From the IMG/VR virus record IMGVR_UViG_3300046535_001697, positions 1 to 64,000 of that record: DNA of 64,000 nt; one strand, 5' to 3'. Position numbers and translations under genes: made by a program. The stretch comes from a virus. Under the pieces are notes generated by a model. That model was not told the DNA's origin. It did not search any database and saw nothing but the letters and a program-made list of their open reading frames with translations. This document shows positions 8,027 through 53,873 of the stretch, piece by piece (the stretch's first letter is position 1; each line of letters opens with the position of its first letter).

Positions 8027-9097
8027 TCATGCGGTGAAGACGTCGTCGGCGGCGTCGATGTAGTCGCGGTTGCGCTTCTCCGCGTCGCGGCGTTCCCGGT
8101 AGGCGATCGTGGTCTTCGGGTTGTCGTGGTCGGCGAAGGCCTGGACCTCCTCCAGAGGGATGCCGTCGTCGAGCATGTGCGTGATCCGGGAGGCGCGCAG
8201 GACGTGCGGGGTGACGTCCTCTCCGGCGAGCAGGCCGGCCTTGCGGCCCATGCGGGTGAGCAGGTAGTCGACGTCGTGCCGGGACAGGCGCCGGCCGTCG
8301 CGGTCCAGGAGCAGCGGACCGTCGGTCCGGTCGCCGACGTGCGCGAGGAGGAGGTCGGTGACGCGCGGGGAGAGGGTGAAGATGCGCTCCTTGCTCTCCT
8401 TGCGGGTGAGGTCGATGGCGAGGCGGTCGTCGCGGCGGCGCAGCTTGTCGACGCCGGCGTTGCACATCTCGGAGACGCGGCCGGCCAGGGTGTAGAGGAG
8501 GCGGCAGACGAGCTCCTCGAAGTCGTCGTCGGCGGCTTCGGCCAGGCGGCGGATCTCGTGCTTCTCCAGGACGGGCGTGGAGTTGGAGGTGCGGCCGGTG
8601 TCGATCTTCGGCCGGTCGTCCTGGGTGACGGGGTTGCGCGGCAGGTCGGTGCGTTCGGCGGCGTAGCGGTGCAGGGAGGAGAGGGAGTTGAGGTAGCGGG
8701 CGATGGTGCGCGGTCGGGCGCCCTGGGCTTCGGCGCGCAGGCGCCAGGTGCGGATGTCGTCGGCGGTGAAGCAGCCGAGGGAGAAGCGGTCGTGGCCGAG
8801 CTCGCGGGCGTAGCCGGCCCAGACGCGGCGGATGTCGTCGGCGTAGTTGCGCTTGGTGTCGACGGAGCCGCGCCGGGTGGAGGTGAGCCAGTCGAGGGTG
8901 AGGAGGAACGTCTCGGGGGTGAGGCACTCGGCGAGGAGGTCGAGGCGCTCGCGTTCGGGGTCGGTCTTCTTGCGGCCGAGGCGCACCGTGCCGAGGTCTG
9001 CGCGCAGGCGTTCAAGGACGAGGTTGACGATGGGGGCCGCCGGCAGTGCGACGGCGGTCTGTTCGCGCGGTGCGATGACCTGATCCATGGCCACCAT
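8027..9097 (-). CDS. Tyrosine recombinase (integrase/XerC-D type)
   Basis: The protein has an N-terminal core-binding domain (about residues 60-150) and a catalytic domain with the expected signature: Arg207 (LAGRVSEM), a beta-hairpin Lys (K233 or K236), His298-x-x-Arg301 (TPHVLRAS), His324 (FADHDNPKTT) and the nucleophile Tyr333. All R-K-H-R-H-Y positions are filled, so it should be active. Length (356 aa) fits simple integrases without an arm-binding domain. ATG 9097 is the first start; ATG 9088 is an alternative that would suit a near-leaderless transcript. Palindromic DNA lies just upstream (9102-9126, 9167-9208). It would catalyse integration or resolution of the element; no attachment site is recognisable beside it. 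Confidence 0.9.
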   Translation of the reverse strand: MVAMDQVIAPREQTAVALPAAPIVNLVLERLRADLGTVRLGRKKTDPERERLDLLAECLTPETFLLTLDWLTSTRRGSVDTKRNYADDIRRVWAGYARELGHDRFSLGCFTADDIRTWRLRAEAQGARPRTIARYLNSLSSLHRYAAERTDLPRNPVTQDDRPKIDTGRTSNSTPVLEKHEIRRLAEAADDDFEELVCRLLYTLAGRVSEMCNAGVDKLRRRDDRLAIDLTRKESKERIFTLSPRVTDLLLAHVGDRTDGPLLLDRDGRRLSRHDVDYLLTRMGRKAGLLAGEDVTPHVLRASRITHMLDDGIPLEEVQAFADHDNPKTTIAYRERRDAEKRNRDYIDAADDVFTA

Positions 9098-9101
9098 TGT
9101 A

Positions 9102-9126
9102 TCCGCATAAGTGAACGTTATGCGGA
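9102..9126. promoter_or_regulatory. 9-bp inverted repeat at the integrase start
   Basis: TCCGCATAA (9102-9110) and TTATGCGGA (9118-9126) form a perfect inverted repeat around 7 bases. It ends only five bases before the first integrase start codon, so a bound protein would block integrase transcription. On the minus strand a -10-like TACAAT (9103-9098) touches it. Likely an operator. Confidence 0.55.
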
Positions 9127-9166
9127 ATCGCAGGGTGCTCGTCCGAGTGAATGCCGGACTAAGGGT

Positions 9167-9208
9167 GTTCTGACGAGCGGTCAGGCGCTACGCTGCCCTC
9201 GTCAGAAC
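9167..9208. promoter_or_regulatory. 11-bp inverted repeat (operator pair) in the divergent region
   Basis: GTTCTGACGAG (9167-9177) is repeated in inverse as CTCGTCAGAAC (9198-9208), 20 bases apart, which places the half sites about three helical turns from centre to centre. A -10-like TACGCT (9189-9194) for rightward transcription lies between the arms. This fits a repressor operator controlling the divergent integrase and the + strand operon at 9244. A candidate binder is the GntR protein at 13494. Confidence 0.55.
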
Positions 9209-9243
9209 AACGTTAGATCACGTCTGTTACTACGGGAGCAGTC

Positions 9244-9876
9244 ATCAAAGCCACCCTCATCCTCGAAGACATCGACCCCGGCGACCTGGACCGCATCCGC
9301 GACTTCATCGCCCCCTACAACCCCACCGTCACCATCGCCGACGACAACACCTGGACCGGCGACCGCATCCAGCGGTACTACCTCGCCCTCCCGCCCCGCG
9401 CCCAGCGCATCCTGGAGGAGGCCGTCGCCCGCGATGGCTACGTGCCCGCCGACGCCCTGCGTGGCGACGACGGCACCGCGAGCCTCAAGGGACACAGCGC
9501 CGGCCTCAAGCGCATCCTCGACCGCGGCATCCGCGAAGGCTGGCTCCCCCCGGGCATCAAGCCGCCCGTCCAGGCCGAAGGCCCCGGCTTCGGCAAGGTC
9601 GGTGGCTACACCGTCCCCAGCGGCCTCCGCGACGACTTCCGCGACACCGTGCTCGCCCTCCCCACCAACCGGCGCGCCACTCTGAGCCAGGAGATCACCC
9701 ACCGGGGCCCCGAGGTGAACTGGACTGCCCCGCTCGCAGTCGAAGTCCTCGCCGCCTACGGCCTCGACACCGACACCAAGGGCGCCCGCGCAATCCTGCG
9801 CCACCTCGCCGACACCGGCCTCATCATCAAGACCGGCCCCGACCGCGCCACTTACCGCCTCAACACCGAACAGTGA
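9244..9876 (+). CDS. Hypothetical protein with non-canonical start, about 210 aa
   Basis: The frame is open from 9217 (after TAG 9214) and reads as normal protein from about 9241 (IKATLILEDIDPGDLDRIRD...), but there is no ATG, GTG or TTG before 9427. A binding-site-like GGGAG (9234-9238) sits five bases before ATC 9244, the most likely start, perhaps a mutated ATG. The region after 9442 (GLKRILDRGIREGWLPPG...) is clearly the same protein. The C-terminus TKGARAILRHLADTGLIIK resembles a winged helix. Function unknown. An internal start at GTG 9439 or 9442 is the alternative. Confidence 0.5.
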   Translation: MKATLILEDIDPGDLDRIRDFIAPYNPTVTIADDNTWTGDRIQRYYLALPPRAQRILEEAVARDGYVPADALRGDDGTASLKGHSAGLKRILDRGIREGWLPPGIKPPVQAEGPGFGKVGGYTVPSGLRDDFRDTVLALPTNRRATLSQEITHRGPEVNWTAPLAVEVLAAYGLDTDTKGARAILRHLADTGLIIKTGPDRATYRLNTEQ

Positions 9877-9883
9877 GGAACCC

Positions 9884-10363
9884 GTGACCACCACGCTCGC
9901 GCCTGCCCTGCTGCTCCCGACCGGCGACCCGAAGCCCGTCGAGAAGGCCGTCGTCGAGGGCATCATCGACGACTTCGAGCCCGAGACGTTCCTGTGGATC
10001 GTCTTCCACCGGCCCGACGGCGGTGCCCGCGTCTGGTACGCCTGGACCACGGGCGGCGTCCCCCTCGGCGAGCACATCGACCAGCACGCCCTCGCCGCCG
10101 GGTTCGACGCCTCCGACTGGCTGCACATCACCGGCCGACACCGCACCGACCACCACCGCGGACGGATCGAGACCCAGGCCCACCCGCTGCGCCCGATCGA
10201 GGCGGACCTCCGCAACGGCGTCCGCGCACCGGAGAACGAGCGGGACAAGCTCCGTCGGCTCATGAACGTCGCACGCGAGACGGCCGGCCAGCCGCCGCGA
10301 CCCGGCACCACCGTCCCCCGATGGATGGGCGTCGGGCCCACCCTGCTCAACCGAAAGAACTGA
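9884..10363 (+). CDS. Hypothetical protein, 159 aa
   Basis: GTG 9884 follows GAGGAA and lies 7 bases after the upstream stop. The protein has an OB-fold-like central part (FLWIVFHRPDGGARVWYAWTT, split by charged turns) and a basic C-terminus. No family recognised. It is part of a three- or four-gene operon ending at the hairpin 11756-11790. Confidence 0.65.
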   Translation: MTTTLAPALLLPTGDPKPVEKAVVEGIIDDFEPETFLWIVFHRPDGGARVWYAWTTGGVPLGEHIDQHALAAGFDASDWLHITGRHRTDHHRGRIETQAHPLRPIEADLRNGVRAPENERDKLRRLMNVARETAGQPPRPGTTVPRWMGVGPTLLNRKN

Positions 10364-10372
10364 GGAGAGACC

Positions 10373-10939
10373 ATGGCCACGATCTACGGCATCTGGGACC
10401 CGGTGAAGGACCAGCCCGGCCCGGTCAACAACAAGTCCTGGATGGAGTGGTGGCCGTCCATGCGCGCCGCCCACGACTCGATGCGCGCCCGCCTCTACCC
10501 CGGCGGCGCCGTCACCGCGGTCGACCCGGCCCGGCACGTCCACCGGGAGGACCGGCCGGACGCGCAGTGGGGCGGCAGCATCGCCCAGTCCTGCATCTAC
10601 CTGTACGACACCCCGGACTCCGACAAGCCCTACGGTCTGGTGGAGTTCGGCCCTCGCGCTGGCGTCCAGTTCCACCGCATCACCGAAGAGCCGCGCACCG
10701 TCACCCTCACCCTCACCTGCGACGGCCGCGAGTTCCACAGCCGGGAGATCGTCGTCCACCCGTGGCACCTCCACAACGGCGCCCGCACCGAGGACCACCG
10801 GTGGGCAAAGTGGCTCGGCCCCGCCACCGACCTCAGCCTGCGCCTCCTGGACGTCCTGCCGCCCGACCCGTACGAGATCACGGCCACCGCTGCCGACACC
10901 GCCACCGGCGAGCAGCTCGCCGCCGCGAACATCCAGTGA
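10373..10939 (+). CDS. Hypothetical protein, 188 aa
   Basis: ATG 10373 is preceded by GAGGAGAG. The N-terminus (MATIYGIWDPVKDQPG) and the aromatic WMEWWPSMRAAH motif are followed by beta-rich sequence. No catalytic or membrane features are visible. Same operon as its neighbours; function unknown. Confidence 0.65.
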   Translation: MATIYGIWDPVKDQPGPVNNKSWMEWWPSMRAAHDSMRARLYPGGAVTAVDPARHVHREDRPDAQWGGSIAQSCIYLYDTPDSDKPYGLVEFGPRAGVQFHRITEEPRTVTLTLTCDGREFHSREIVVHPWHLHNGARTEDHRWAKWLGPATDLSLRLLDVLPPDPYEITATAADTATGEQLAAANIQ

Positions 10940-10949
10940 GGATCACGCC

Positions 10950-11741
10950 ATGAGCCGTGAAGTACGCCGCGTCCCCCTCGACTTCGCCTGGCCCATCGAC
11001 CAGGTCTGGGACGGCTACCAGATGCCCACCAGTCTGCAGGCGGACCGCTGCCCCGACTGCTCCCGGGGCATGACGGCCGCCCGCGAGTGGCTCGACACGC
11101 TGTGCACCCGCATCGACATGCTCGCCTCCGACATCACCAACCAGCGGCGCGGCCGCCCCATGCACCCGTGGCTCGCGCAGATGCCCTACCCGGCGCACTC
11201 CGCATTCGTCTACGACGACGAGGGCCGGACCGTCGGCCAGCCGCAGATCCTCCGGCCGTCCGCCGACATCCTCGACCTCGTCGCCGGCCTCAGTGACGAG
11301 AGCCCGGAGTGTCTGACCAACCCGATGCGCGGCAGCAACTACAAGCTGACGTGGAAGGTCATCGAGGCCGCCGGACTCGACAACACCACCTGGGGCATCT
11401 GCCCGACATGCGCCGGCTACGCCTCCGTCGAGAAGTACCCGGGCCAGCGGGCCGAGGCCGAGACGTGGGAGAAGTCCGACCCACCGACCGGCGAAGGCTG
11501 GCAGCTCTGGGAAACCGTCAGCGAGGGCTCCCCGCAAAGCCCGGTCTTCGCGACCGCCGACGGGCTCGCCACCTGGATGTCCGACCCCGCCCGCGGCGAG
11601 GACTGGGTGCCACCCGCCACAGCCGCCGCGTTCATCAAGGCCGGCTGGGCACCCACCGGCGCACACAGCGCCGCCACCGGCGTCATCAGCGGAGTCGAAC
11701 TCGTAGGCCACCACCTCGACGACCCGACCAACCCCGCGTAG
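10950..11741 (+). CDS. Hypothetical phage/plasmid-type protein with two cysteine pairs, 263 aa
   Basis: ATG 10950 follows GAGGATC. Two CxxC units, CPDCSRG (about residues 34-40) and CPTCAGY (about 151-157), can form a zinc site; the rest is soluble alpha/beta with a tryptophan-rich middle. Proteins with this mix (GYQMPxxLxxxxC near the N-terminus) occur in actinobacterial mobile elements, but I cannot assign a role. The strong hairpin 11756-11790 follows directly. Confidence 0.65.
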   Translation: MSREVRRVPLDFAWPIDQVWDGYQMPTSLQADRCPDCSRGMTAAREWLDTLCTRIDMLASDITNQRRGRPMHPWLAQMPYPAHSAFVYDDEGRTVGQPQILRPSADILDLVAGLSDESPECLTNPMRGSNYKLTWKVIEAAGLDNTTWGICPTCAGYASVEKYPGQRAEAETWEKSDPPTGEGWQLWETVSEGSPQSPVFATADGLATWMSDPARGEDWVPPATAAAFIKAGWAPTGAHSAATGVISGVELVGHHLDDPTNPA

Positions 11742-11755
11742 CCCAAAGAGGCAAG

Positions 11756-11790
11756 GTGTCCCCGCCGCATTCGACCTGCGGCGGGGACAC
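11756..11790 (+). terminator. 14-bp stem hairpin after the 9244-11741 operon
   Basis: A perfect 14-bp stem (11756-11769 with 11777-11790; left arm GTGTCCCCGCCGCA) with a 7-base loop lies 15 bases after the stop at 11741. It separates this operon from the next gene, which has its own -10 at 11801. Confidence 0.8.
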
Positions 11791-11800
11791 CGCCATTGTC

Positions 11801-11806
11801 TACCCT
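11801..11806 (+). promoter_or_regulatory. -10-like element for a near-leaderless transcript
   Basis: TACCCT lies eight bases before ATG 11814 and directly after the terminator 11756-11790. The spacing suggests a transcript starting at or near the initiation codon, which is common in Streptomyces. No clear -35 is seen. Confidence 0.4.
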
Positions 11807-11813
11807 GGTGGTC

Positions 11814-12788
11814 ATGACGACCACGGTGCCCGCCCAGCTCGACGCCGACCTGCAGGCCCTCCGCGACCGCGCCGCCGCCGACCCCACCATCGGCACCTCC
11901 AAGCACCGCATCGACCGCCTCACCACCGTCGTCTCCATGCTCAAGCGCGCAGCCGCCGACCTCGACCCCCAGCAACGCGCCAGCGTCGACGCACTGCTGC
12001 GCCCCGACGTCATCGGCCACCCCGACCAGCCCGACACGATCCTCGGCCGGGCCATCGACGGCCGCTACCGCACCCGGCCCAACCCCGACCCGCTCACCGC
12101 CGCCACCCAACGCGCACTCATGGACGGCCTCGCCGACCTCAACCGCGCCCACGGCCGGCCCCCCTACTGGTGGCAAGAGCCCGGCAACCGCTACCGGCCC
12201 GCGCTGCGCCCCTGGTCCGGGCACACCGAAGAACCGATGACACCCGGTGCACACCGGGTGCTGCGCCGCGCGCTCAGCCGGCCGTACCCGGACCCGGCAC
12301 GGGAGGCGTTCCGGCTGCGGACCCTCGCGATGCTGGAGGTGCTGTGGGACACCGCGGTCGAGCCGGAGGGCCTGGTCGCCGCGGACACCACCGACCTCGT
12401 CGACGGGGTGGAGGAGATCGAGCTGACGTTCAACCCGCCCGGCCGGACCGAGGCCGTCACCGCGACGGTGCCGCTCGGCCCGTCGGCGCGCGCGGCGCTG
12501 CGGCTGTGGCTGCCGGTGCGGCGCCGGGTGGTGGCCGAGCACCTGGTGGCCGGCCCGGACCATCCCGCGAACCAGGCCCTGTTCGTCACGCTGCGGGCGA
12601 CGACCGGCACCTACCCGGACACGGGGCTGCCGCGGCTGGTCCCGCCCGGGCTGCGGATCACCCGCGGGGGCCTGCTCGTGAGCTACCGGTCGACCGCGCG
12701 GCGCCTCAACGCCGAGCACCACGGGCAGAAAGGCTGGCCAGTGCCGACGAGCCTGTACCTCATCACCCGCGGTGCGGCCCAGACCTGA
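11814..12788 (+). CDS. Tyrosine-recombinase-like fold without catalytic residues, 324 aa
   Basis: The region from about residue 155 (RLRTLAMLEVLWDTAVEPEG...LVAADTTDL) and the later PLGPSARAALRLWLPVRRRV match the pattern of the start of a tyrosine-recombinase catalytic domain (xxRALLxLLYxTGLRxSELxxLxxxDxD ... PLxPxAxxALxxWL). However, the first catalytic Arg position is replaced by Pro/Glu, and I see no HxLR box or nucleophile Tyr at the C-terminus. It may be an inactive relative acting as a DNA-binding or regulatory partner of the integrase. The start is ATG 11814; TTG 11796 is less likely. Assignment rests on pattern only. Confidence 0.5.
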   Translation: MTTTVPAQLDADLQALRDRAAADPTIGTSKHRIDRLTTVVSMLKRAAADLDPQQRASVDALLRPDVIGHPDQPDTILGRAIDGRYRTRPNPDPLTAATQRALMDGLADLNRAHGRPPYWWQEPGNRYRPALRPWSGHTEEPMTPGAHRVLRRALSRPYPDPAREAFRLRTLAMLEVLWDTAVEPEGLVAADTTDLVDGVEEIELTFNPPGRTEAVTATVPLGPSARAALRLWLPVRRRVVAEHLVAGPDHPANQALFVTLRATTGTYPDTGLPRLVPPGLRITRGGLLVSYRSTARRLNAEHHGQKGWPVPTSLYLITRGAAQT

Positions 12789-12957
12789 GCCGGGGAGTTG
12801 TGCAGCCGTAGGTGCCGGAGAGCAGGGGGCGGCAGATGGGCCAGGATGCCCGGGGAGGTTCGGGAGGCATCGCGCCGCAGCCGGAACCGTCGGGGTTCTT
12901 GATCAACGTATTAGTTAGACGTTTCGTCGGACACGGCGGGACTCGAGAGCCCCTGCA

Positions 12958-13362
12958 CTACTGGATCCTCCAGCGCATCTCCGCCCACAGCGTGGTCCCG
13001 GACGCGTCCAGTTCGTGCCCCATGCCGCTCGAGAGCTCCCGAACCAGACGAAGGCCCGCGCCGTCGTCCGTGCCGGTCGCGGTGGCCGTGAGCTCGGCGA
13101 CGGGGGTGGCAGTGGTGCGGCCGGCGTCGTGCACCTCGACCCGCAGCCACCTGTGGAAGGTCCGCACCTGGACGGAGAGGGTGAACGATTCGCCTCCGTG
13201 CCGGAGCGCGGCCTTGGCGAGCTCCTCGACGATGCGGCCGGCGTCCCTGCGGACCTCCTCAGGCGCGAACGCCTGGAGTAGGCTGCGCAGGCTCCGGCGC
13301 GCGACGCTGACAGATTCGGGCACGCCGGGGAGGGTGATCATCAGATCAGGGTCGCCGTTCAC
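12958..13362 (-). CDS. Anti-sigma-factor-type ATP-binding protein (HATPase-like), 134 aa
   Basis: The layout matches the RsbW/SpoIIAB-like kinases abundant in Streptomyces: an N-terminal SVSVARRSLRSLL, a helix IVEELAKAALRHG where the family has xSELxTNAxRH, a D-x-G-like strand (VEVHDAGR) and a glycine-rich lid (GTDDGAGLRLVREL). The asparagine normally needed for magnesium in the N-box is Ala here, so kinase activity is doubtful. GTG 13362 has AGGAG upstream. It may bind a sigma factor or an antagonist; it is divergent from the GntR gene. Confidence 0.7.
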   Translation of the reverse strand: MNGDPDLMITLPGVPESVSVARRSLRSLLQAFAPEEVRRDAGRIVEELAKAALRHGGESFTLSVQVRTFHRWLRVEVHDAGRTTATPVAELTATATGTDDGAGLRLVRELSSGMGHELDASGTTLWAEMRWRIQ

Positions 13363-13493
13363 TGCGCATTACTCCTACCCGGTCCACCGTCACGCAATTA
13401 TGACGCACAGTGAACTGTATCGGTCCGGTTTGCGGTGTCCCGACACAGCCACAAAGCTGTGCCCAAAGCTGGATTCGGTGAAGAGGGCCCTCC

Positions 13494-14255
13494 ATGGTGT
13501 TCGAGCAGTCATCCACGCCGCGGTACGTGGAGATTGCCGACGACCTGCGCGGGCGCATCAACCGGGGCGAGTGGGAGCCCGGCGACCCGTTCCTGTCGCA
13601 TCAGGAAATCAAGGAGCAGTACGGGGTATCGAGCACCACGGCGGCCGGCGTGCGCTCCATCCTCCTGTCCCAGGGCATCCTCGAGCCGCGCCCCGGCGCC
13701 CGGATGACGGTCCGCCGGCCACCCGAGCGGCGTCGTATCGACCGCACCTCCGCCGCCCCCGAATCCTCCGCGCACCCCCTGCGCGAGCAGGAGATCACCG
13801 CCGGCCGGGCCGGTGAGTGGGCGAGCAAGACCCGGTGGGCCCAGACACCGCGGGAGATCGCCGAGCTGCTCCGCGTCGAGGCCGGGTCAAAGGCGGTCGT
13901 CACCGACTACCAGTTCCGGTCCGCCGGACGCCTCGTGCGCCTGGCCCGCTGCTGGGAACCGGACGCCCTCGTGGGCGGCACCGTCGTCCAGCTCCCCGAG
14001 GAGGGCCCGTACGCGGGCCGCGGCGTCGTGGAGCGCATGGAGGCGCTCGGGATCGGCCCACTGACCGTCCGGGACGAGCTGGTGGCGTGCCCCGCCAGCC
14101 ATGACGAGGCGCAGCTGCTCGCGGTAGGGCTCGGTTCCCCCGTGCTGAGGGCGACTCGGGTCTACACGGGCCCGGATGGCCGGCCGGTGCACGTGGAGCA
14201 GTCCGTGGTGCGCGGGGAGACGTCGTCGATGATCTACCGGCTGTCGGCGGGCTGA
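13494..14255 (+). CDS. GntR-family (HutC/UTRA) transcriptional repressor, 253 aa
   Basis: Residues about 8-75 form the GntR winged helix (YVEIADDLRGRINRGEW, then SHQEIKEQYGVSSTTAAGVRSIL). The C-terminal two-thirds is a UTRA effector domain ending in the typical RVYTGPDGRPVHVEQSV. Length fits the family. Related GntR proteins are the Kor-type repressors that keep transfer genes silent in Streptomyces plasmids, so it is a candidate master regulator here. ATG 13494 is the start. A hairpin terminator (14268-14293) follows. Confidence 0.85.
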   Translation: MVFEQSSTPRYVEIADDLRGRINRGEWEPGDPFLSHQEIKEQYGVSSTTAAGVRSILLSQGILEPRPGARMTVRRPPERRRIDRTSAAPESSAHPLREQEITAGRAGEWASKTRWAQTPREIAELLRVEAGSKAVVTDYQFRSAGRLVRLARCWEPDALVGGTVVQLPEEGPYAGRGVVERMEALGIGPLTVRDELVACPASHDEAQLLAVGLGSPVLRATRVYTGPDGRPVHVEQSVVRGETSSMIYRLSAG

Positions 14256-45077: not shown

Positions 45078-45908
45078 ATGGATAGCATCAGGCAGCGGGA
45101 AGCGCTGCGGGCGTTCCTGCGGTGTGCCAGGGCGGCTCTGTCGCCGGAGGAGGTCGGCCTGCCCCCGCGGGCCGAGGGGCGGGGCCGCCGCGCGGTGGGC
45201 CTGTCCCAGGAGCAGGTGGACGAGCTGATGAACCGGGCCGCGGGCACGTATGCCCGGCTGGAACGCGGCTCGCTGTACGGGGTGACGCCGGAGCTGTGCC
45301 GGGACGTGGCGCTCGCGCTGCGCTTCGCGGAGGAGCAGTGGCAGGCGCTGTGGATCTACATGTACGGGCATCTGCCGCCGTGGCTGCTGCACCCGTCGCA
45401 GGCGGGCCTGGTGGGCGGGCACTGGCGGCGGGTGGTGGAGATGCACGGGGAGCCGGCGTACGTGACGGACGCGGGCTGGAACATCATCTACCACAACCAC
45501 CTGTTCGCGGCGATCTTCCCGGGGAGGGTGGCTCCGGCGAACGCGATGGAGTGGATGATGCTGTCGGCGGACGCCCGGCACCGGCTGGTGGACTGGCCGC
45601 GGGCGTGGGCGCCGAAGGTGCTGCCGCAGCTGCGGGCGGCGGTGTTGGAGCATCCGGAGAACGAGACGCTGCAGTGGCTGGACCGGGCGGTGCGGCGGGA
45701 TCCGGTGGCGGGCCGGCTGTACGGGGAGACGCACGATGCGCATCTGCAGCCGGACGGGGACGTGCGGCAGCTGGTGCACGCGGGCCGAGGGGACCGCCAG
45801 GTGGTGCAGATGGCGGCGGCGGAGCCGACGGGCAAGCGCGGTGCGCGGTTCATGGTGCTGCAGCTCGATCCGGTGGTGGGGGATCGGACGTTCGCCGACG
45901 TCATGTGA
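45078..45908 (+). CDS. XRE-family regulator with MmyB-like domain, 276 aa
   Basis: The N-terminus (ALRAFLRCARAALSPEEVGLP; RRAVGLSQEQVDELMNRAAG; TYARLERGS) is the helix-turn-helix of the MmyB-type regulators common in Streptomyces. The rest has the ligand-binding pattern EPAYVTDAGWNIIYHNHLFAAIFP ... NAMEWMMLSADARHRLVDWP ... LLRAAxxxHPEN. Length fits the family. It may control the adjacent polyketide synthase or the element. A hairpin terminator follows at 45929-45959. Confidence 0.85.
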   Translation: MDSIRQREALRAFLRCARAALSPEEVGLPPRAEGRGRRAVGLSQEQVDELMNRAAGTYARLERGSLYGVTPELCRDVALALRFAEEQWQALWIYMYGHLPPWLLHPSQAGLVGGHWRRVVEMHGEPAYVTDAGWNIIYHNHLFAAIFPGRVAPANAMEWMMLSADARHRLVDWPRAWAPKVLPQLRAAVLEHPENETLQWLDRAVRRDPVAGRLYGETHDAHLQPDGDVRQLVHAGRGDRQVVQMAAAEPTGKRGARFMVLQLDPVVGDRTFADVM

Positions 45909-51204: not shown

Positions 51205-51693
51205 TCAGTTGGCGCGGTTCTTCCAGCCGGATGCGGCGCTGGCGTGGCTGGTCGCGGTGGAGTGGGAGGTGGAGCCGGTGTTGCTGTTGTTGATGTTGAC
51301 GGTGACTTTGGCGGAGGAGCCCTTGAGGAGGCTGACGGCCGCGGCGGCGACGCCGACGGCCAGGCCGGCGCCCTCGGCGGCGTGGGCGAACTCGGCGAGG
51401 CCGTGGGCGTAGTGGCCAACCGCAACAGCGACACCGGCGATGGTGCCGCCGGAGGCAACGATGCGGGCGGGCCACGGGTCACGGGGTGCCTGCTGGACGA
51501 TGACCGGCGCCGGGGCCGGCTGGGGCTGGGGGGCGGCACGGGGCTCGGGCGCCGGGGTGTCGTTCATGTAGACGGCGACGGGCTTGTGGTCCTCGACACC
51601 GATGGCGATGCCGATGCCGGTGAACTGCCCGGCAGCGAGGTCGGCCTGGGTTGCGTAGGCGGTGCGGTCGGCGGACTGCTGGGTGGTGGTCAC
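51205..51693 (-). CDS. Small membrane protein of the transfer module, 162 aa
   Basis: GTG or ATG 51693 overlaps the translocase stop. The N-terminal part is soluble, a Pro/Ala linker follows (about 47-65), then two hydrophobic stretches (GGTIAGVAVAVGHYAHGLAEF, AGLAVGVAAAAVSLL), and finally a Ser/Thr/Asn-rich tail. Small membrane proteins next to TraB-type pumps serve plasmid spreading in Streptomyces; that role is inferred from position. Confidence 0.65.
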   Translation of the reverse strand: MTTTQQSADRTAYATQADLAAGQFTGIGIAIGVEDHKPVAVYMNDTPAPEPRAAPQPQPAPAPVIVQQAPRDPWPARIVASGGTIAGVAVAVGHYAHGLAEFAHAAEGAGLAVGVAAAAVSLLKGSSAKVTVNINNSNTGSTSHSTATSHASAASGWKNRAN

Positions 51694-53873
51694 TGCTGCT
51701 CCTCGGGGGCGTCGGTGCGGTGCTTGACGTGGGCGTAGGCGCCGCGCATGGGCTTGTAGAACTGGGGCTCGGCCTTCAGCCAGTCCGTGATGGCGGACCG
51801 GGACGGTGCCGGGGCAACCGGGAAGATCACGGCGAAGAGTTCACGGATGGCGTCGGGGCCGATACCGGACGGGCCGGCCTTGACGACGATGCTGAAGACG
51901 GTGGGCCAGCGGGCGTCGTCGCTGACGCCGGGGGTGGGCGTGGGGCCAGTTGCCTGCTTCGGCGCCGGGGCGGACTCGGGGGTGAGGTGCGCGGGGGGCT
52001 TCCACAGGGCGCCGCCCTCGCCGAGGATCTCCCGGAACTGCCGGTCGAGGTCGGCGTCGTGGCTGGTGGTCTCGTTCATGGCGCCGCGTACGCGGTTGCG
52101 GGTCTCCTCGGCGGCGGCGATGGCGTCAGCGGCGCTTCCGGCGGGCGGTGTGCTGTCCCAGTCGGCGGTGACGCTGCGCCTCGGCGTGCTGTTCCCGTCC
52201 GTGGTCGGGCCGGCCTGCGGGGGGACGGCGTCCATGATTCCGGCGAGGATGCTGTCGGGGTCCTGGACGTCGATGAGGAACAGGTGGTCGGTGTTGTCCC
52301 AGCGCCGCTCGTACGCTTCACCGGCGACCTTGCGGGATGCGGCGTCGAGTTCGGGGCGGCGGGTGCTGACCTCCTGGATGAGGGCCATCATGATGTCGGG
52401 CTTCATGAGGTAGGTCTTGAACGGGCGGGCGTGCTTGCGGCCGAACTTGAGGAAGCCGCAGCCCTCGTAGGGGGCGTCTTCGGGCTTGAGGCGCTCATTC
52501 CAGCCGAACAGGTAGTTCAGCTCGGCTTCGGTGTCGACGCCGAGGCCGATCTTCATGATGGACTGCTTGAGGACCTGCGGTTCGGCGATGACGTCCTGGG
52601 TGGCGCGCAGGGCAGCGTTCTCGACGTTGCAGGCGGTGGCCCGGCCGATCTCGATGATCTCGACGATGTTGTCGCCGACCTTGCGGAGGATCTCGTCGCG
52701 GCGGGCGCGCTGCGAGAAGAGCATGGCGATCTCGTCGTTGTTGAGGGTCAGGGCGGGGATGCGCGGGGTGACGGGCAGCTTGTCGTCGTTGGCCTGGAGC
52801 TCGAGGGCCTTGTAGGCGGTCTTGCGGATCTTGGCGATGCGCTTCATGGCCTCGGTCATGGCGAGGGCCTTTTCGGGGGTGTCGGCGACCCAGTCGACGG
52901 GGGGCTTGCCGGGCTTGCCGAGCTGCGTCCACAGATGGAGCCAGGGCAGGGCGAGGTTGCCGCCGTTGAGGTCGATGACCCAGACGAGGTTGTCGACCAT
53001 GCGGAGCTGGTTGGCGATCTTGACGTTCATCAAGTTGGACTTGCCGGAGCCGCGCTGGCCGACGGTGACGCTGGAGGCCTGGCGCATGACGGCGCCGGCC
53101 TTCTCGCCGTCCTGGTAGACGCCGATCGCGGTGAAGTCATTGATCGACAGGGGGGAGAAGTCCATGGGGTAGGGGACGTCGTCGAGGAGGTGGTTGACGG
53201 TGGCGACGTTGACGAGTGCGGTGCCTCGGTCGGCGCCGGCTGTGACCTCGACGCCGCAGCCCTCGGGGAGGCGGGCGTCGCCGGCGAGCCGGTCCTCGAA
53301 CGGCTTGAGTTGGCGCCAGGTGGTGCCGCCCGGGGGGACGATCTCCAGGGTGTAGCCGCCGCCGCTGTCCCACTGCTCGATGGCGAGGACGGTGGTGTTG
53401 TGGACGGCGCAGACGCGGCCGATGCGGGCGGTCCATTCGGCGGCGAGTTCGGTGCGCAGGGCCTGGGCGGCGTTGGCGATGTCGGTGGCCTGCTGGTCGG
53501 CGGCGGCCTGGGCGGTGGCGCGCCCGGTGCGGGCTTCGCCGGTCCAGGCCATGCCGAGGCCGATGGTTCCGGCGGCGAGGGTGCCGAGGCTGGTGGTGGT
53601 CCAGGGGCTGGTGGCCATGGCCCAGGAGCACCAGGTGCCGGCGCCGGCCCAGGTGGCGGCTCGGACGGCGAGGCTGGTGCCGGTGATGTGGTGGGTGCCG
53701 CGCTGGCGGACGCCGGCGAGGTGGTGGCCGAGGAGGCCGGCGCCGGCGGTGGCGGCGGCCCACATGGGGGGCATGTGGGCGACGTGGCCGGCCCAGGCGG
53801 CGGCGAGGGTGGCGCCGGCGATGTTGAGGGGGCCGGTGACGGGGCCGTGGCCGGCTTCCCAGTCGACGTTCAC
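51690..53873 (-). CDS. FtsK/TraB-like DNA translocase, 727 aa
   Basis: GTG 53873 is the start. Hydrophobic segments at the N-terminus (about residues 15-110) anchor it in the membrane. The pump has Walker A at 272-279 (GQRGSGKS) and Walker B at 297-301 (VWVID). The C-terminal 655-708 (FSIVVKAGPSGIGPDAIREL...SRSAITDWLKAEPQF) looks like a winged helix, as in the DNA-reading gamma domain of FtsK/TraB. Streptomyces TraB proteins move double-stranded DNA between hyphae after binding short repeats. Candidate repeats lie at 55952-56222 in the same module. Confidence 0.82.
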   Translation of the reverse strand: MNVDWEAGHGPVTGPLNIAGATLAAAWAGHVAHMPPMWAAATAGAGLLGHHLAGVRQRGTHHITGTSLAVRAATWAGAGTWCSWAMATSPWTTTSLGTLAAGTIGLGMAWTGEARTGRATAQAAADQQATDIANAAQALRTELAAEWTARIGRVCAVHNTTVLAIEQWDSGGGYTLEIVPPGGTTWRQLKPFEDRLAGDARLPEGCGVEVTAGADRGTALVNVATVNHLLDDVPYPMDFSPLSINDFTAIGVYQDGEKAGAVMRQASSVTVGQRGSGKSNLMNVKIANQLRMVDNLVWVIDLNGGNLALPWLHLWTQLGKPGKPPVDWVADTPEKALAMTEAMKRIAKIRKTAYKALELQANDDKLPVTPRIPALTLNNDEIAMLFSQRARRDEILRKVGDNIVEIIEIGRATACNVENAALRATQDVIAEPQVLKQSIMKIGLGVDTEAELNYLFGWNERLKPEDAPYEGCGFLKFGRKHARPFKTYLMKPDIMMALIQEVSTRRPELDAASRKVAGEAYERRWDNTDHLFLIDVQDPDSILAGIMDAVPPQAGPTTDGNSTPRRSVTADWDSTPPAGSAADAIAAAEETRNRVRGAMNETTSHDADLDRQFREILGEGGALWKPPAHLTPESAPAPKQATGPTPTPGVSDDARWPTVFSIVVKAGPSGIGPDAIRELFAVIFPVAPAPSRSAITDWLKAEPQFYKPMRGAYAHVKHRTDAPEEQQ

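Follow-up and report, generated by a model that had tools for sequence, protein, structure and literature searches.

A tyrosine-recombinase-like phage protein lacking catalytic residues and the little-studied Streptomyces family to which it belongs

MrpR, the master repressor of the Bacillus phage SPbeta, has a tyrosine-recombinase fold in which Arg I, His II and Arg II are replaced (PMC10516654). The same report describes MrpR as inactive in recombination in vitro, as associating with repeated SPBRE sites and maintaining lysogeny, and as retaining K169, Y304 and the C-terminal part. Our literature search brought up no other studied protein that has the recombinase fold and no recombinase activity, and MrpR appears to be the nearest studied analogue of P0001, the phage-encoded protein described here. 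P0001 lacks the Lys, the Tyr and the C-terminal part that MrpR keeps. In VIA comparisons with the model of P0001, MrpR/YopR of SPbeta (8a0a, 8bj6) and SroF of phi3T (9rgl, 9rd5; titled repressor) aligned at Z 7.2–8.2 and rmsd 6.7–12.4, values too low for kinship to be claimed. When the profile of the P0001 family was compared with PDB chains, MrpR and SroF were not reported at E≤1, and the parallel is therefore one of fold only.

The active recombinases Cre, XerA, XerD, XerH, Tn1549 Int and lambda Int have their fold in common with P0001, which keeps none of their Arg I, Lys, His II, Arg II, His/Trp III and Tyr. The gp2 protein of Streptomyces phage Gilgamesh (MN234216.1, L086:1805–2818), annotated as ‘tyrosine integrase’, aligns with the family, having come up as a weak hit (E 5e-5) to the plasmid member P0006. 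It ends 13 residues past WETMRR and is devoid of His II, box III and Tyr. Unlike P0001, it retains Arg I and Arg II; its branch is very long and its place in the tree unsure. Gilgamesh gp2 is unlikely to be a standard integrase, since it aligns with this family and stops 13 residues after box II. The P0001 family corresponds to PHROG 6657, whose function is unknown and which is matched at E≤0.01 by 32 of 36 aligned members (best E 9.5e-89). For P0001 itself no PHROG model, and hence not PHROG 6657 either, was matched at E≤1, and its clade additionally lacks Arg I and Arg II. No published description of such a dead-recombinase family was recognised in the literature search, which does not establish its absence in print.

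The gene and its surroundings

The window, that is, the whole stretch of 64,000 bases analysed here, comprises bases 1–64000 of an 82,636-base virus record. It carries terminase, portal and tape-measure genes, which are marks of a tailed phage. The terminase/portal DNA finds its nearest match in Streptomyces phage Kromp (70%, query coverage 81%), which makes Streptomyces the likely host. A ParA-like match (PF13614) at 81360–81599 of the record, beyond the window, suggests that the phage may have a plasmid state. An FtsK/SpoIIIE-like protein is encoded at 51690–53873 on the minus strand (phrog_31069, E 6.8e-89). No tRNA genes were found across the window. Two other regulators are present, a GntR-type protein (13494–14255) and an MmyB-like protein (45195–45908), either of which could be the lysogeny repressor.

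P0001 (324 aa) is encoded at 11814–12788 on the plus strand. The frame is open, begins with ATG and was scored as coding by a home-made codon-usage gene call; its assignment as a catalytically dead protein of tyrosine-recombinase fold draws on the family HMM and on Foldseek and VIA comparisons. The gene is the last in a run of plus-strand genes starting at about 9442. The first of these (9442–9876) has a relative in the phage locus L075 (48% over 67 aa); it has no in-frame ATG, GTG or TTG before 9442 and probably begins earlier. Its frame runs on upstream without these codons (about 9244–9876), and by eye an ATC start at 9244 is possible, as GGGAG precedes this codon. The second gene (9884–10363) has relatives around family members in plasmid pSP90 (L003, 64%) and in G070 (L042, 62%), and the neighbourhood is thus partly recurrent. 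Two plus-strand genes without assignment follow, at 10373–10939 and 10950–11741, both from the open reading frame list and the coding call; the latter ends 72 nt before P0001.

An intact tyrosine recombinase is encoded on the minus strand at 8027–9097 (PF00589, E 2.5e-21; phrog_1, E 3.9e-36). As an earlier note on this DNA had held, this integrase is intact: R, HVLR, H and Y are all kept, and it is the sole PF00589 match at E≤1 in the whole record. It lies 2.7 kb from P0001, on the opposite strand and with four genes between. The note had also spoken of an inactive paralogue. The lack of catalytic residues is borne out, while recent paralogy with this integrase is not supported, as BLASTP between the two proteins gave E 0.90 and P0001 belongs to a separate family, the HMM of which is described below.

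The gap that separates the integrase gene from the divergently oriented ones contains, a short way upstream of the integrase start, an inverted repeat with 19-nt arms (89%) and a 20-nt spacer (9159–9216), a candidate operator or attachment-site element. Consensus promoters and terminators were sought in 9000–13500 and none was found. Inverted repeats of at least 20 nt (14-nt seed, within 120 nt) were likewise sought in the window and none was detected. The search for an SPBRE-like repeated intergenic operator gave no clear candidate, exact k-mers of 9, 10 and 12 recurring mostly as GC-rich sequence.

Catalytic positions and fold

Catalytic positions were assigned from an alignment of 46 family members. 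In P0001 the remnant of box I is DTAVEPEGL (residues 179–187; 12348–12374, plus strand). The replacement pointed out in the earlier note, TAVEPEG where TGLRxSE is expected, is present at residues 180–186, with E183 in the place of Arg I. The remnant of box II is YLITRG (residues 315–320; 12756–12773, plus strand), with Y315 in the place of His II and T318 in that of Arg II. The chain contains no Lys from position 44 to position 306, and the Lys of the beta2-beta3 hairpin is accordingly absent. Nor does it contain an HxLR, or any Tyr after Y315, so the lack of this motif and of the nucleophile, also claimed in the note, is borne out. The chain ends at residue 324, six residues past the Arg II position, and therefore box III (His/Trp) and the nucleophile Tyr are missing.

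The Arg I place holds Arg in 40 of the 46 members and has lost it in six. At the His II place Glu is found in 42 and Tyr in four, and His in none. Arg II is kept in 42 and is replaced by Thr, Ser or Ala only in the four members of the P0001 clade. The residue after it (R319 in P0001) is Arg in all 46. Beyond this position the chains stop within 4–52 residues or run into tails of 65–120 residues. None of the 46 shows a recognisable box III or Tyr, the tails being judged by eye; a loose [HW]...Y spacing occurs in seven tails, which by eye is not box III. A frameshift as the cause of the absent C-terminus was ruled out, because this part is missing from all 45 further proteins in the alignment. 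Judged from the alignment, the family cannot carry out standard recombinase chemistry, since His II and box III/Tyr are lost in the aligned members, and the P0001 clade is the furthest gone. In five proteins (P0003, P0006, P0012, P0015 and P0016) the truncated recombinase domain is followed by a Cys-rich tail (HG...CRC..C), by eye a small zinc-binding motif.

Recombinase ancestry was examined at the level of sequence and of fold. PF00589 is matched at E≤1 by 25 of 36 family members (best 3.8e-7), and two NCBIfam recombinase models are matched at the same cut-off by 26 and 20 of the 36. Against PDB, the family profile found XerA (E 6.3e-7) and XerD (7–9e-4) over 44–85 positions around box I. 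In an hhalign comparison of the family with 13 recombinases the probability was 92 (E 6.3e-7). The AlphaFold2 model of P0001 (nine sequences) is of middling quality, with mean pLDDT 71 and pTM 0.52. In a Foldseek search of PDB with this model, the 33 best matches were all tyrosine recombinases, the best being Cre (E 4.1e-4), with low TM-scores of 0.24–0.37 and E≤0.001 in one match only. VIA aligned Cre at Z 9.7 over 222 residues (rmsd 9.2) and the single catalytic domain of an MRSA integrase at Z 8.8 over 150 residues (rmsd 3.9), the two-domain alignments of P0001 mostly having rmsd 8–15; Z below 8 (below about 13 for mainly helical models) can reflect a common helix arrangement.

The VIA alignments start mostly at residues 2–29 of the model and extend to residue 324, ending at Cre 298, XerH 318 and lambda Int 317. 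Arg II is R292 in Cre, R312 in XerH and R311 in lambda Int (PMC10516654). The alignments thus end at Arg II plus six in all three enzymes, which places Arg II of P0001 at T318 and His II at Y315, in agreement with the sequence alignment. By its model P0001 resembles a tyrosine recombinase with a core-binding and a catalytic domain, and the sequence matches of its relatives concur. Evidence from sequence, family and fold supports the reading of a recombinase-like protein without catalytic residues.

The family and its genomic settings

Scans of P0001 alone against Pfam and PHROG (both at E≤1) and against NCBIfam returned no family, and spotting the fold by eye was therefore not trivial. With P0001 as query, one relative was found in genome contigs (57%, Actinacidiphila glaucinigra), four weak ones in Streptomyces plasmids (E 0.04–0.5) and nothing at E≤1 in phage records. 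Among 394 Streptomycetaceae-family genomes at least 35 gave a match at E≤1e-3, a lower bound because five candidates were scored per genome. Three of these matches are close (60, 59 and 46% identity) and the rest are at 32–43%, some of partial length. The plasmid protein P0006 as query found relatives in 79 of 72,556 plasmid records (E≤0.1; Streptomyces in 77 cases) and in four phage records, to which ZL12 and Gilgamesh contribute two apiece. Searches of viral contigs with P0001, P0005, L002 and L020 found no relatives; those with P0006, P0003 and an alignment gave seven loci. Detailed loci cover 11 of the 79 matching plasmid records (40 listed) and two phage records. The 46-member alignment omits L011 (the same gene as L002), L026 (a near copy of L025), the short and divergent L034 and L039, the protein of L082, and genome-search matches without a locus, some of which later became L067, L068 and L070.

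An HMM of 42 members from which the P0001 clade had been excluded found residues 11–314 of P0001 at E 2.8e-38 (database size 38,880). In control comparisons at E≤10, none of 20 shuffles was reported, and of 13 integrase-type recombinases a single one was, at E 0.25. In the tree of the 46, P0001, L002, L012 and L013 form one clade with 100/100 support. Because the clade-free HMM finds P0001 and none of the 46 members keeps His II or a recognisable box III/Tyr, P0001 is, on these sequence comparisons, a member of a widespread, little-studied Streptomyces family and not a single decayed gene.

Selection was estimated from close pairs. In 10 close family pairs dN/dS was 0.12–0.59, indicating purifying selection, and the pair L002/L012 of the P0001 clade gave 0.20. 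Between P0001 and its three nearest relatives dN/dS was 0.68–0.76, which is not clearly below 1 and comes from a method unreliable at this GC content; purifying selection is for these reasons not established for P0001 itself, and constraint on it may be relaxed.

In eight members of one clade (support 100/99; L007, L008, L009, L010, L075, L078 (pZL12.34c), L081 and L083) an insert separates the two beta strands after box I, at the site where active enzymes hold the catalytic Lys. Of seven inserts scanned against Pfam, five were read as a LacI helix-turn-helix (best 8.8e-6, every one under the 27-bit curated cut-off) and two as a weak IclR-type helix-turn-helix; that of P0017, the eighth member, was assessed by eye. 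The model of L007 has three helices at 208–250 (pLDDT about 80) between strands 196–200 and 257–261; it is poor overall (mean pLDDT 59.5), the insert and the N-terminal part being usable and the rest of the C-terminal half unreliable. Such a LacI-like helix-turn-helix, set into the catalytic hairpin, points to DNA binding as the function that this family would have retained. At least three PLSDB records among the matches listed name such a gene a LacI-family regulator.

The position of family genes relative to recombinases differs between settings. Fifteen phage-plasmid loci of the pZL12/pSP90-type clade were compared (eight plasmids, phage ZL12 and six IMG/VR contigs; L076, at a contig end, was left out). 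A same-strand tyrosine recombinase lies upstream in 14 of them, overlapping the family gene by 4 nt in seven, within 22 nt in four and at 386–767 nt in three; at the remaining locus, L082, no upstream recombinase was seen. On pZL12 the family gene pZL12.34c has the recombinase gene pZL12.36c in its vicinity. The pattern R...HxxR...H/W...Y fits 11 of the 14 enzymes, and by eye the other three (L075, L078 and L080) have HSVR or HSSR, H/W and Y. The related plasmid pSLE1 carries two putative integrase genes according to PMC4487206. The loci of a ParA-linked group (L004, L006, L084 and L055) have no recombinase gene directly before the family gene; at L006 one is found on the opposite strand, some 1 kb downstream.

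Among 32 whole-genome loci a recombinase was detected in four and none in 28, the stretches being of 5.6–18 kb and the small HMM used, grown from four sequences, being liable to miss others. In three of the four positives (L046, L064 and L067) the recombinase is without HxLR or HxIR, L046 reading QGIR; these genes are possibly further inactive recombinases. Within the P0001 clade, an intact recombinase precedes the family gene by about 520 nt in G070 (L042), and none was found in the stretches of L002 and L041. By eye an Lrp/AsnC-type regulator lies near the family gene on the other strand at eight whole-genome loci (L043, L044, L049, L050, L051, L053, L071 and L072); at L050 the two genes are listed on the same strand. 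This is a recurring stand-alone setting of the family gene.

Possible roles of P0001

The explanation to which we incline is that P0001 descends from a tyrosine recombinase and acts, without catalysis, as a regulator that binds DNA. The earlier suggestion of a DNA-binding regulator is plausible in view of the basic C-terminal domain of P0001 (pI 10.1), the LacI-like helix-turn-helix in one clade and the precedent of MrpR. We infer that a recombinase-type site could still be clamped, and left uncut, by the core-binding domain together with what remains of the basic catalytic domain. Occupancy of the site would repress transcription, as MrpR does in SPbeta, would determine the state of the integrase/attachment region, or would do both. 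The most likely target in the window would be the 344-bp region between the integrase gene and the upstream genes of P0001. The other role put forward earlier, that of a directionality factor, may also apply, the phage-plasmid relatives being mostly coupled to an intact recombinase.

That coupling (14 of 15 loci, with the 4-nt overlap in seven) raises the main alternative, that P0001 is a structural, non-catalytic subunit of an integrase complex on core or arm sites, which would govern how efficiently or in which direction recombination proceeds and would not act as a transcription factor. The clade member in G070, about 520 nt after an intact recombinase, and the window integrase at 2.7 kb would fit such a subunit. 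We nevertheless consider it rather unlikely for P0001. No recombinase was found by the small HMM in 5.6–18 kb at 28 of 32 whole-genome loci, including L041 of the P0001 clade, and the stretch of L002 from the same clade was likewise negative. Moreover, three of the four positive loci have recombinases without HxLR/HxIR, the ParA-linked group has none directly upstream, and in the window itself four genes separate the two, which are encoded on opposite strands. Linkage to ParA could instead indicate a plasmid maintenance factor, a centromere- or origin-binding protein acting with ParA in plasmid-prophages. Three loci (L004, L006 and L084) have the order ParA, small gene, family gene, L055 has ParA upstream, and the record of the window contains the ParA-like match mentioned above. 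This match is about 69 kb from P0001 (about 13 kb if the record is circular), whereas the pZL12-type members examined adjoin recombinases and not ParA, and no ParA was noted for the remaining members, which come from large genome contigs; a maintenance role is quite improbable.

The loss of every catalytic residue and the dN/dS of 0.68–0.76 with its three nearest relatives are what a decaying, functionless integrase remnant would display. Against this, the 324-codon frame is open and scores as coding, the 45 further members in the alignment, drawn from plasmids, phages and genomes, are truncated at the same point, the close pairs, including that of the P0001 clade, have low dN/dS, and R319 is kept throughout the alignment; decay is thus a very improbable explanation. 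An enzyme with an unorthodox active site, for example with Y315 as nucleophile, is scarcely credible. All four members of the P0001 clade do have Tyr at this position, but P0001 lacks Arg I, Arg II and Lys, and the position is Glu in the other 42 members.

Beyond the regulator reading of P0001 itself, a broader arrangement can be put forward tentatively. Streptomyces phage-plasmids may possess an undescribed two-part module in which an intact tyrosine recombinase is translationally coupled to an amputated one that would provide site recognition and control and no chemistry. In one clade the hairpin would have been replaced by a LacI-type DNA-binding domain, and in several lineages, including that of the window, the dead subunit would have been freed as a stand-alone regulator. 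The findings on Gilgamesh gp2 and the family suggest that the entries annotated as ‘tyrosine integrase’ include some that cannot be standard integrases. The P0001 family would provide a second, differently truncated case after MrpR, spread across actinobacterial phages, plasmids and genomes, and a candidate control protein for pZL12-type plasmid-prophages.
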